DNA from: Dethiobacter sp.
GTDB lineage: Bacteria; Bacillota; Dethiobacteria; Dethiobacterales; Dethiobacteraceae
Direction: 5' to 3'
Assembly (NCBI GenBank): GCA_018333635.1
Contig: JAGXTL010000010.1
Location: 1-64,000 of the forward strand
Length of the DNA stretch: 64,000 bases
Shown here: positions 1 to 35,754 of the stretch, one piece after another
Layout of the letters: every line of letters starts with the position of its first letter
Position numbering within the stretch: position 1 is the stretch's first letter
Notes under the pieces: generated by a model
Seen by the model: the letters and a program-made list of their open reading frames with translations, nothing else
Told to the model about the DNA's origin: nothing
Databases searched by the model: none
Program-made: the position numbers and the translations under genes

Positions 1-512
1 ATTTTTTTATTAAGTAGCAGGTATTTTAGTAGGTCAAATTCGGTTTTTGTCAGATCTGCCGTTTCACCGTCATAGGTTACCGTGTATTTGCTTGTATCAA
101 GGCAGAGTTTACCCGCTTGCAGGATATTTTGTTTTGTAAAAGCGACAGCTTTGCATTTGAGGGTTTTACGAATTCGGGCTAGAAGTTCCTCAATAGCAAA
201 AGGTTTAACGAGATAATCATCGGCTCCGCAATCCAGTCCCATTACTTTGTCCATAATATCTCCCTTTGCAGTTAGCATGATAACAGGCACGTCAGAAACC
301 TGCCGGAGTCTGCGCAGCACTTCCATTCCGTTAAGGGATGGTAGCATTACATCGAGAATAATCAGGTCATAATTGCCCTTTATGGCTTGATCCAGCCCAG
401 TTCGCCCGTTGTGTTCCAGCGCCACGGCATATCCTTCGTGTTCCAGTTCCAATTGAATGAACCTAGCTATTTTTGCTTCGTCTTCCACAACGAGGATGTT
501 GTTTTTATTCAT
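1..512 (-). CDS. OmpR/PhoB-type response regulator, C-terminus beyond the left edge
   Basis: Reading leftward from an ATG at 512, preceded by an AAGGAG ribosome binding site, the first 170 residues form a complete receiver domain and the beginning of a winged-helix DNA-binding domain. The receiver shows the acidic pair E10/D11, the phospho-acceptor D54 in the context LIILDVMLP, T81, and K103 in LVKPF. The stretch around residues 145-165 (LTKTEFDLLKYLL) is the usual start of the PhoB/OmpR effector domain. The rest, and probably a cognate histidine kinase, lie outside the window. It is transcribed in the same direction as the DUF4342 gene upstream of it and also has its own good promoter. It would act in the cytoplasm as a phosphorylation-controlled transcription factor; the signal is unknown. 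Confidence 0.93.
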   Translation of the reverse strand, partial: MNKNNILVVEDEAKIARFIQLELEHEGYAVALEHNGRTGLDQAIKGNYDLIILDVMLPSLNGMEVLRRLRQVSDVPVIMLTAKGDIMDKVMGLDCGADDYLVKPFAIEELLARIRKTLKCKAVAFTKQNILQAGKLCLDTSKYTVTYDGETADLTKTEFDLLKYLLLNKK

Positions 513-545: not shown

Positions 546-574
546 ATTCTATACAGAAAAGGACGTAAAGGCAA
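546..574 (-). promoter_or_regulatory. Sigma-A-type promoter of the response regulator
   Basis: On the minus strand there is TTGCCT, 17 bases, then TAGAAT, with the -10 hexamer about 35 bases before the ATG at 512. This fits a vegetative promoter allowing the regulator to be transcribed apart from the DUF4342 gene. Inferred from hexamer match and spacing only. Confidence 0.55.
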
Positions 575-659
575 AGAAATATAGTTAATGAAAGGAGAAG
601 TAAAAAACTGCCGATAAATTAATACCAGCAGATTTTCATGCTCCAGATATACATCTGTG

Positions 660-1148
660 TTAATCAGGCTTCTTTGTTTCCCAGGCGCTCTTAACTTCTT
701 GGGCAACTTTGCCGGCTAAATCACTGGTTTTACTGGCGATACTGTTCAGGCTGTTATTGATACCGTATTCCTGACCGTTGTCTTTGATGAACTTTATCCG
801 ACAATTGGTTACCAAGGCTAGAAAAAACAGCGCCACAGCAAGTGGCATGGTAATAATGGTTATCAAAATCGCTAGAGGGACGCCTACATTAAGCAAGGTA
901 TTATTGTCTTTGGATGTGATCCGCAAGCGAATAGGGCTGGCTTTAATGTAAAGCTTTTTCAGTTTTTTCCAGAGGGAGGAGGTATTGACCTCCAACTTGT
1001 TTTCCTGTTTAATTTTATTTTGTTCTTCCAGGTAGGCTAAGGCCTCTACAACGTCCCCCTCGTTCTTTTGCAAGGCTTCTTTTGCCTCGTTGTAAGTGAC
1101 GTCAGCCCGTTTTCTTAGCAGATCAATTTTTTCAAGTGTTATTTCCAT
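660..1148 (-). CDS. DUF4342 domain membrane protein
   Basis: This 162-residue protein begins with a DUF4342/UBA-like helical region at residues 1-45 (MEITLEKIDLLRKR, then the NEGDVVEALAYLEE segment), the kind of fold shared with the N-terminus of elongation factor Ts. A basic linker follows, then one hydrophobic segment at about residues 88-112, then a short polar tail. The start ATG at 1148 is preceded by GGAGGG. The family is common in Firmicutes, often close to two-component systems, but has no established biochemical role. The response regulator lies 147 bases downstream on the same strand, and a set of 11-bp direct repeats sits over the promoter region at 1201-1244, so the two genes may form one regulatory circuit. 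That link is inference. Confidence 0.8.
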   Translation of the reverse strand: MEITLEKIDLLRKRADVTYNEAKEALQKNEGDVVEALAYLEEQNKIKQENKLEVNTSSLWKKLKKLYIKASPIRLRITSKDNNTLLNVGVPLAILITIITMPLAVALFFLALVTNCRIKFIKDNGQEYGINNSLNSIASKTSDLAGKVAQEVKSAWETKKPD

Positions 1149-1200: not shown

Positions 1201-1244
1201 AGTTAGAGTTAGATTAACGTCAGATTAGAGTTTGATTAGAAATG
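1201..1244 (-). promoter_or_regulatory. Four half-sites at 11-bp period, likely response-regulator box
   Basis: On the plus strand GATTA occurs at 1212, 1223 and 1234, exactly 11 bp apart, and a related AGTTA lies one period earlier at 1201. The best 11-mer is GATTAGAGTTT. OmpR/PhoB-family regulators bind direct repeats with this period as head-to-tail dimers. The last repeat, read toward the DUF4342 gene, covers the place where a -35 hexamer would lie relative to a TATAAA -10 at 1181-1186. This is the arrangement of activator-replaced -35 promoters such as pho boxes. Binding by the regulator at 1-512 is inference. Confidence 0.6.
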
Positions 1245-1799: not shown

Positions 1800-3440
1800 A
1801 TGTCCGGTATTTTTATCGAAGGAATAATTGTTTCCGTCTTGGTTTTGGCAGTTTCCGTCTATTTCGGCTTTTGGGGTCGGAAGATGACTAAAAATGTCTC
1901 TGACTATTTCGTGGCAGGCCGCTCCATTGGGGCTGTAAATAATGGCTTAGCCATGGTTTCGCTTTCGCTAAGTCTAACCACATTTCTTGGGCTTACAGCT
2001 TTAATCTTTCACGGGTTTTATCTGGCAATAGCTCTTTACGCTGCTTTTACCGCATCTTTTATCGGTATGCTGGTGCTGGCGGCTCCCTATTTGCGCCGGC
2101 ATAAATCTTTCACGACAATGGCTTTCATCGGTGAAAGATTCTATAGCAGGAATTTGCGCTTGCTTTCCGTTTTTATTATGCTGATAGTTAGTATACTCTA
2201 CTTAATTGCAAATATTAAGGGAATAGGCATTATTTTCCAGGTATTGCTGGGCTTGCCGCAAGTTTATGGGATATTAATCGGAGGTCTGGTAGTTACTCTC
2301 TATGTGATGGTGGGCGGAATGTACGGTGTGACTTACAGCCAGTCTTTCCAAAGTGTAGTAGTGCTTTTTGCCATATTTGTGCCGATTATGATTATTTTGC
2401 GGGCATTAGGCGCTGATGGCTGGTGGTTTCCGCCTTTAGGTTATGGCGAAATGGTGCCGGCCATGGTTAACGTTACCCCTCATTACTTTTTCCCCTTCAT
2501 CGTTCATCCGGTGTGGTACGTTGCCGTGTTCTTTGGTACATTTTTTGGAATTATCGGTCTGCCGCATTTTGTGATGCGCTTCTTCACCGTGCGTGACGCA
2601 AAAGAAGCCCGCTGGAGCCTTGTTTTTTGTACTTTCCTCGTGGGCTTAATCAATACCAGTGTGTATGCCTTGGGTTTCGCGGGCGTCTACTATGTGGCGA
2701 GCCGCGGAGTTCAAATCAGCATTGCTGATTATGATAAACTTTTGTTTATCCTGACTGAGGCAATTGCAGGCAATAGTTGGCTGGCTATCACTGTGGGCGG
2801 AGCGCTGGCAGCAGGCATTTCCACCGTGGCGGGATTGCTGATGATTATGGGTACGGGTATAGTGCATGACTTATACGGAGTACTGCGACCCAACACGAGT
2901 CAGGAAAAAATGCTTAAAATGGCAACTTCTGTCATGTTTGTGGTAGGAGTACTTGTTACCATTCTTTCATTAAGGCCGCCTGCCTTTATCCTGGTCACGA
3001 TTATGTGGGCCTTTGGTATTGCCGGTTCGGCATTTGGTGTGCCGATTGTGCTGGGCATCTGGTGGAAGCGTACCACTAAAGAAGGCGCCGGTGCCGGGAT
3101 GATTATCGGTTTTCTCACCAGCTTTATTCCCTATGTATTGATTGAAATTATGGGTTGGGAGGCAACCATGATTTCGAGATATCTCTACGGCCCGCTCGGT
3201 TGGGTAAAAGTTATCGCCTTTAGCACACCATTAACTTTCATTACCACCATTATCGTTTCTTGGTTGACAAAGGAACCGCCGGCTGAGGTTAAAGCTTCGG
3301 TTGATGTAATGCATGGTTGGAGCGATTATCGCGAAGAACGTTATAACGGTAAGCTTTTACCGATAATCGTGCTAGTTCTCTCTGTCTTAAGTATTTTGTC
3401 GATATTTACACTTTATGACATTTTCTCGGTCATTGGTTAG
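1800..3440 (+). CDS. Sodium:solute symporter (SSS family)
   Basis: This 546-residue integral membrane protein has about 13 hydrophobic helices spread over its length. The early DYFVAGRSIGAVNNGLAM segment (residues about 35-52) is characteristic of the SSS family, where a sodium-binding site is formed by helices 1 and 8. GSAFGVPIVLGIWWKR, at about residues 405-420, is the conserved late-helix motif. The start ATG at 1800 has AGGTG upstream. Length agrees with acetate/pantothenate/proline-type symporters, but the substrate cannot be read from sequence. Because two CoA-ligase-like genes follow directly, a carboxylic acid substrate is a reasonable inference. It uses the sodium gradient to import solute across the cytoplasmic membrane. 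Confidence 0.88.
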   Translation: MSGIFIEGIIVSVLVLAVSVYFGFWGRKMTKNVSDYFVAGRSIGAVNNGLAMVSLSLSLTTFLGLTALIFHGFYLAIALYAAFTASFIGMLVLAAPYLRRHKSFTTMAFIGERFYSRNLRLLSVFIMLIVSILYLIANIKGIGIIFQVLLGLPQVYGILIGGLVVTLYVMVGGMYGVTYSQSFQSVVVLFAIFVPIMIILRALGADGWWFPPLGYGEMVPAMVNVTPHYFFPFIVHPVWYVAVFFGTFFGIIGLPHFVMRFFTVRDAKEARWSLVFCTFLVGLINTSVYALGFAGVYYVASRGVQISIADYDKLLFILTEAIAGNSWLAITVGGALAAGISTVAGLLMIMGTGIVHDLYGVLRPNTSQEKMLKMATSVMFVVGVLVTILSLRPPAFILVTIMWAFGIAGSAFGVPIVLGIWWKRTTKEGAGAGMIIGFLTSFIPYVLIEIMGWEATMISRYLYGPLGWVKVIAFSTPLTFITTIIVSWLTKEPPAEVKASVDVMHGWSDYREERYNGKLLPIIVLVLSVLSILSIFTLYDIFSVIG

Positions 3441-32551: not shown

Positions 32552-32561
32552 CTATTTGTAA

Positions 32562-32682
32562 TTCCTTCAGGGACAGGTGAGAAGGTTAGCCTTCAATTCC
32601 TAACCGGCGGTAAAGCCCGCGAGCCATTGGCTGATCCGATGCTATTTCGGAGCCGACAGTAAAGTCTGGATGGGAGAAGGAA
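32562..32682 (+). promoter_or_regulatory. FMN riboswitch (RFN element)
   Basis: The segment contains the conserved RFN blocks in order: AGGGACAGGTGA, CCTAACCGGCGGTAAAGCC, GCGAGCC, GAGCCGACAGTAAAGTC and GGATGGGAGAAGGAA. Outer stem P1 is TTCCTT (32562-32567) with AAGGAA (32677-32682). It binds FMN and, with the terminator just downstream, lowers rib operon expression when flavin is plentiful. Confidence 0.95.
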
Positions 32683-32703
32683 GGCTTATTTCCGTGCCAT
32701 CAA

Positions 32704-34548: not shown

Positions 34549-35754
34549 GTGAAATTCAATACGATTGAAGAAGCGCTTGAAGATCTGCGACTGGGTAAGA
34601 TGATTGTGGCTGTGGACGACGAAGACAGGGAAAACGAAGGAGATCTAGTGATGGCGGCAGAAAAAGTGACGCCGGAAGCTATTAACTTCATGGCAAAATA
34701 TGGCCGCGGGCTGATTTGTGCTCCGCTGGAAGCACAGCGGGCTAACCAGTTGGAACTCCCCCCCATGGTGGCAAACAACACGGATGCCCATTTCACCGCG
34801 TTTACAGTATCGGTTGATTCCACCCATTCCACCACTGGAATTTCTGCGCGGGAACGGGCCGAAACGATTCAGGCGCTGATTTCTCCGGAGACAAAACCGG
34901 GTGACTTGCGGCGTCCCGGTCATATTTTCCCACTGAAAGCGATGGAGGGCGGCGTTTTACGTCGTGCCGGCCACACGGAAGCAGCAGTCGACCTGGCAGT
35001 GATGGCGGGGTTATATCCGGCAGGAGTCATTTGTGAGATTATGGCTGAGGATGGAACGATGGCACGTGTGCCGCAGCTCATGCAGTTTATTCTTGAGCAC
35101 GATCTGAAGATTATCACTATTGCAGAGTTGATTAAGTACAGAATGCAAAAAGAAAAGCTGGTTCGCCGTGCCGGTGAGGCGCATCTGCCTACCCAGTACG
35201 GTGATTTCAGGATTATTGCTTATGAAAATAATGTGGACAAACATGAACATCTGGCTATTGTGAAAGGCGAGATTAATCCGGAAGTTCCGGTGCTTGTTCG
35301 CGTTCATTCCGAATGCATGACTGGCGATGTATTTGCTTCGCAGCGTTGTGACTGTGGTTCTCAACTGGCCAATGCCCTAAGGCTGATTGAAGAGGAAGGA
35401 TGCGGAGTGGTAATATATATGCGCCAAGAAGGCCGCGGCATTGGTTTAGTCAATAAAATCAAGGCTTACGCCCTGCAGGATGCAGGTAAAGATACTGTGG
35501 AAGCCAATGAGGAATTGGGCTTTGCGCCTGATTTGCGTGATTACGGTGTGGGCGCACAAATTCTGGTAGATCTGGGCGTGCGTCAAATTCGGCTGCTGAC
35601 TAACAACCCCAGGAAAATAAGGGGCTTGGAAGGCTATGGCCTGACTTTGCTGGAACGTGTCCCTATTGAAATACTGCCCTGCCGGTATAACCAAGACTAC
35701 TTGGATACAAAAAAGCAAAAACTTGGCCATATATTAACAAAACGCTGCCTGTAA
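34549..35754 (+). CDS. ribBA: Bifunctional DHBP synthase/GTP cyclohydrolase II
   Basis: A 401-residue fusion. Residues 1-200 are RibB, with [16 protein letters not shown] and [10 protein letters not shown], making the four-carbon unit from ribulose 5-phosphate. Residues 205-400 are RibA, with zinc-binding [20 protein letters not shown] and RQEGRGIGL, opening GTP. Key residues of both halves are present, so both should be active. GTG 34549 has AAGGAGTGA upstream. Confidence 0.95.

Follow-up and report, generated by a model that had tools for sequence, protein, structure and literature searches.

What reads the four half-sites that precede the DUF4342 gene of this Dethiobacter sp. contig, and to what effect, is the question raised by the stretch of DNA analyzed here (64,000 nucleotides, hereafter the window). 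The preliminary description had proposed a self-contained circuit in which a neighboring response regulator activates DUF4342. Our analysis supports a similar reading: the four half-sites are very probably a switch via which the adjacent regulator-kinase pair turns on DUF4342, with positive autoregulation of the system.

The sequence AGTTA was found at 1201-1205 and GATTA at 1212-1216, 1223-1227, and 1234-1238, spaced by an exact 11-bp period. The minus strand, which encodes DUF4342, reads TTCTAATCAAA CTCTAATCTGA CGTTAATCTAA CTCTAACT from 1241 to 1201. It comprises two strong distal half-sites of about 11 bits each across loci (half-site 1, TTCTAATC, 1234-1241, and half-site 2, CTCTAATC, 1223-1230) and two weaker proximal ones (half-site 3, CGTTAATC, 1212-1219, about 5 bits, and half-site 4, CTCTAACT, 1201-1208, about 7 bits). 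A -10 box (TATCAT) was located on the same strand at 1186-1191, 9 bp past the array, and was followed by a short leader and, ahead of the DUF4342 start (1148), a ribosome site. The expected -35 position (around 1214-1209) falls within the array, as had been claimed; head-to-tail half-sites with an 11-bp period over the -35 position are, at sequence level, the layout of an OmpR-type direct-repeat operator. The pattern RRTTA-N6-RRTTA-N6-RRTTA gave two overlapping matches in the window, thus indicating four half-sites in a row, vs. 0.02 expected from dinucleotide shuffles, none of which gave two; positions and shuffle statistics together bear out the four half-sites and the exact period that were first noticed. 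Across the 2.39-Mb genome of the window this loose pattern was matched five times (vs. one match for the reversed control), and the fuller pattern of array plus -10 box had a sole match with zero mismatches, the DUF4342 promoter array. Assignment of the array to the divergent plus-strand gene at 1518 was rejected, as the -10 box sits on the minus strand and the sister genome keeps array and leader but diverges beyond the array. A strong hairpin just 5' of the array (1262-1300; z = -5.5) is probably the terminator of a neighboring transcript. Elsewhere in the window, an FMN riboswitch was observed at 32559-32685, and a match to Rfam V_AS9 (34646-34749, minus strand; 51.7 bits, cutoff 50) within the plus-strand ORF 34549-35754 is probably conserved coding sequence of this ribBA-looking ORF and not RNA.

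The DUF4342 gene (660-1148, minus strand) encodes a protein of 162 aa (Pfam PF14242, 43 bits vs. a cutoff of 25) with a UBA-like N-terminus, a hydrophobic segment at about residues 90-113 and a C-terminal helix; Pfam returned just DUF4342 plus a sub-threshold UBA match. The AlphaFold2 model (mean pLDDT 77) was confident for the N-terminal UBA-like part, of moderate confidence outside it and less certain for the membrane part. In a fold search of this model against PDB nothing matched at E ≤ 0.001; the top rows (the UBA-like domains in EF-Ts, NAC, and HYPK) thus provided no functional clue for DUF4342. The gap of 126 bp between DUF4342 and the regulator ORF holds a strong intrinsic-terminator-like hairpin (608-631, minus strand; z = -5.6 vs. 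shuffles), which recurs in the sister genome and has comparable counterparts at 15 other loci. Overall, such a hairpin followed DUF4342 in 17 of the 36 loci where the gap measures 30 bp or more, window and sister genome included. This makes DUF4342 look like the main product, which should exceed regulator and kinase in amount. A possible weak basal promoter for the latter two genes, recognized by its match to the consensus, is TTGCCT-N17-TAGAAT (546-574, minus strand), whose counterpart in the sister genome is ATGCCT...TATAAT.

The window starts at a contig end, inside the regulator gene, and contains its 5' part (1-512, minus strand; likely start at 512). The first 127 bases are exactly those of positions 1-127 of contig C21 (G000), and this overlap joins both contigs, completing the regulator gene (L008, 128-302), after which comes the gene of a histidine kinase (388 aa, identified by Pfam) predicted to have two membrane segments with a short loop. 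Scores of 103.5 bits for Response_reg and 100.2 bits for Trans_reg_C placed the regulator in the OmpR/PhoB family, and among the solved regulators closest to it in sequence are PhoP of M. tuberculosis, over its full length, and ArlR of S. aureus, for each domain taken separately. The initial statement that an OmpR/PhoB-type regulator lies directly downstream of DUF4342 was therefore right as to family and gene order; "directly" has to give way to a gap of 126 bp with a terminator-like hairpin.

For the comparative analysis, loci were gathered by searching 60 relatives and a genome collection; start codons were assigned by rule, and regulators and kinases elsewhere were called from phmmer matches to those of the window. 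The DUF4342 genes found were of two kinds, those without an adjacent regulator, several of which are preceded by a recO-like gene as judged by eye, and those followed by regulator and kinase, an order that by sequence is a recurrent Clostridial cassette. A second DUF4342 gene (G000, C13:12851-13216; L041) and its relatives have neither adjacent regulator nor array. Once duplicates were dropped, the sample consisted of 72 DUF4342-regulator-kinase loci, which are interrelated, with those of related Lachnospiraceae not fully independent, and of 35 controls (DUF4342 genes without adjacent regulator), most of them drawn from genomes related to that of the window and unmatched at species level. The period of 11 bp upstream of DUF4342 was clearly marked in the regulator-linked loci (z = 16.4), with weaker shoulders at periods 10 (3.7) and 12 (6.3), in contrast with the controls (z = -0.7). 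Ungapped alignment yielded TTYTAATC-NNA-TTYTAATC-TTN, two weaker half-sites and then TATAAT. Since the first alignment had been seeded with all four half-sites, it was repeated with anchoring on half-sites 1 and 2 only. Under these conditions 60 of the 72 loci anchored vs. 0.8 in shuffles, and the elements that had played no part in the anchoring reappeared at fixed offsets: the AA core of half-site 3 in 56/60 loci, that of half-site 4 in 58/60, and a -10 box of the form TAnnnT in 57/60 (11 for the next best -10 offset). A matrix derived from all loci detected the complete element (four half-sites with the -10 box at fixed offset) at 70 of the 72 cassette loci and at none of the 35 controls; both loci missed, L117 and L129, presented array-like sequence by eye. 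Matrices trained on one clade and tested on the others recognized 27/43, 25/29, and 35/53 loci, again with 0/35 controls. Conservation of the 11-bp repeats in orthologous loci, on which the original proposal hinged, was thus obtained in the cassettes and was lacking in regulator-less DUF4342 genes. In 64 of the 70 loci with the element, the best match to TTGACA at a spacing of 16-18 bp did not exceed 3/6, thus reflecting a promoter that as a rule lacks a -35 box.

From these sequences we infer binding, activation over repression, cooperativity and an action of DUF4342; activation rather than mere binding is favored because the -35 box is missing and the geometry is CiaR-like. The four half-sites would be the tandem binding site of the OmpR-type regulator encoded beside DUF4342. 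The strong distal half-sites 1 and 2 would be bound by a dimer of the phosphorylated regulator, which, in the simplest reading, would help a second dimer onto the weaker proximal half-sites 3 and 4. The occupied proximal pair would replace the -35 box and recruit RNA polymerase to the fixed -10 box, so that DUF4342 would be turned on. Only a fraction of the transcripts would continue past the hairpin into regulator and kinase, for which there may also be a separate weak promoter, and the two-component system would top itself up, that is, be positively autoregulated. In the genus of the window, the hairpin implies that DUF4342 may be the main target of the array, with autoregulation of regulator and kinase depending on read-through. 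Finally, DUF4342 would act back on the kinase or the membrane, as SaePQ on SaeS.

Such an action on either kinase or membrane appears to be the most likely role of DUF4342. Its fuller version, in which DUF4342 would be the membrane-bound partner in a Clostridial three-component system guarding membrane composition, induced from its own promoter and feeding back on the kinase, with the Tissierellia regulator also driving a glycolipid synthase, is put forward tentatively. A serious competitor, though held with less than even confidence, has the same promoter mechanism and regards DUF4342 as the effector of the response instead of a feedback modulator: trouble in the membrane would be sensed and DUF4342 would stabilize the membrane. 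An excess of DUF4342, which the hairpin behind its gene permits in many loci, is in agreement with an effector, and so are other array-like promoters at membrane-related-looking genes. Array-like sites were found before genes of the MGDG-synthase (glycolipid-synthase) family in three Tissierellia genomes, and close orthologues in six Tissierellia-type genomes displayed recognizable four-half-site arrays at similar distance (matrix scores 5 to 31), whereas the more distant homologues scored were mostly without array (exceptions were L316, 20.1, and L327, 8.0). These loci (L271, L304, L306, L309-L314) may represent a second target of the regulator. Two further array-like sites (L272, 3217-3273, and L303, 3043-3099) lie 5' of a DUF4097 gene and of a gene for a 70-aa hydrophobic protein, respectively. 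All these genes beyond DUF4342 are candidate targets and serve as leads. Against the effector stands the fact that DUF4342 adjoins the regulator-kinase pair in most sampled loci, which a sensor accessory fits at least equally well.

The regulator might also bind the array and repress, occupying the region up to the -10 box and keeping DUF4342 and the kinase genes off until release. OmpR-family proteins are able to repress, and for C. difficile RR_1586 repression of its own operon has been proposed, via a site that lies at the start codon (PMC6222199). A repressed promoter, however, would be expected to keep the -35 box that is missing in 64/70 loci, and the proximal half-site lies at the distance from which CiaR activates; we consider repression unlikely.

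The identity of the protein reading the array was approached through the regulators themselves. In a quick tree with several long branches, DUF4342-adjacent regulators formed one clade (97% SH-aLRT) apart from nearly all sampled paralogues, L238 being the sole one inside. In two genomes the cassette is split across contigs (L091/L264 and L092/L265) and both halves keep an array of their own, with matrix scores of 48 and 55 for DUF4342 and of 43 and 40 for regulator-kinase. When the full pattern was searched in 25 genomes, 22 of the 23 perfect matches were DUF4342 promoters, as determined by sequence comparison with the loci in hand, and the remaining one precedes the gene for the 70-aa hydrophobic protein named above; full arrays occur about once per genome, at DUF4342. 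In AT-rich genomes a looser pattern was equally frequent in the control orientation, and no regulon claims were based on it there. The predicted promoter element is sharp enough for its targets in Clostridia to be predicted by searching for the pattern. One could imagine that the array belongs to another, global regulator whose half-site is similar rather than to the adjacent one, given that several OmpR-family proteins (CiaR, SaeR, BAS0540, and RR_1586) recognize direct repeats of the TTAA type and that the window genome has other arrays near other regulators. This is very unlikely in view of an array that tracks one regulator clade, is missing at DUF4342 genes without regulator, persists on both halves of split cassettes and is near-unique per genome. 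Chance periodicity of AT-rich intergenic DNA, which the AT-rich half-sites might have suggested, is refuted by the shuffles, the control comparisons and the conservation, and its probability is negligible.

Regarding those other arrays, a four-half-site array of 11-bp period with a -10 box, kept in the sister genome, was observed 5' of a gene of the cytochrome c552 family, with a different regulator-kinase pair alongside (L267, 4426-4482, in G000 C130; L268, 2683-2739, in G001). A TTAACC/TTAATC-type array of three half-sites, also with an 11-bp period and with the -10 box after 11 bp, lies 5' of an EAL/GGDEF gene, with a further regulator-kinase pair nearby (L009, around 3058-3110, in G000 C19); the matrix scan of the sister region L269 found no counterpart of it.

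The proposed regulator-DUF4342 circuit is supported, with refinements. The array tracks the cassette, split halves keep it and it is near-unique per genome. The histidine kinase belongs to the circuit too, and in Tissierellia, because glycolipid-synthase-family genes carry similar arrays, the circuit is probably not fully self-contained. A search of 5.39 million open-licence papers found no mention of DUF4342. The family has no described role, and one of its branches is now tied to a single regulator clade. Its function has become an experimental question, namely which signal induces the array and what happens to kinase and membrane after loss of DUF4342; if true, the three-component reading gives the family a defined signaling function.

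The pho boxes of PhoB consist of tandem 11-bp direct repeats in place of the -35 box, and the present array is like them in this general respect. A strict Pho box was rejected: the regulator reached 198.5 bits with the PhoB model TIGR02154 (cutoff 296.2) and the half-site differs. Among Clostridial regulators, OmpR-family RR_1586 of C. difficile binds direct repeats of the 11-nt motif DRTTAAGNWWW, with one site upstream of its own operon (PMC6222199), as in our case, although its predicted regulon is broad and the feedback proposed is repressive. For GraX/GraRS of S. aureus, a cofactor cotranscribed with regulator and kinase is reported to make a three-component system (PMC3128592); to that extent the composition of accessory, regulator and kinase is shared, with another accessory protein. 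Promoters activated by streptococcal CiaR (NTTAAG-N5-TTTAAG-N10-TATAAT; PMC3091779) resemble the DUF4342 promoter in half-site core, 11-bp period and distance from the last half-site to the -10 box (half-site 4 core at columns 34-39 of our alignment, N10, -10 box at column 50), and the recognition helix of CiaR, VVEVYVSKVRKKL, resembles VVDVYIRYLRSKL of the window regulator. Differences were the number of half-sites (four vs. two, the distal pair being stronger), the target, DUF4342, and the invariant final G of CiaR sites, in place of which TTTAA is followed by T in the distal pair (93 and 90%) and by mixed bases in the proximal pair (columns 6, 17, 28, and 39).

The closest worked-out parallel is the sae operon of S. 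aureus, whose autoinduced front promoter P1 carries two double SaeR sites, GTTAA-N6-GTTAA, and whose accessory proteins raise the phosphatase activity of the kinase (PMC5083920). In both systems membrane accessory genes come first, followed by regulator and kinase, here by predicted function. The front promoter has two double half-sites with a TTAA core and an 11-bp period, read in sae by the operon's own regulator. Also, regulator and kinase of sae have a weaker promoter apart from P1, for which the consensus match at 546-574 is a candidate here. The predicted membrane layout of the window's kinase is a further point of likeness. This locus accordingly has an accessory gene ahead of regulator and kinase, with putative sites for the regulator in its promoter. 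In contrast with saePQRS, the accessory is a DUF4342 protein instead of SaeP and SaeQ, many DUF4342 loci have a terminator-like hairpin after it, and each genome has the full array at one gene or a few rather than across a large virulence regulon. The best reading of the locus would therefore be a circuit organized like saePQRS, with a CiaR-like promoter geometry and a different, UBA-like membrane accessory.
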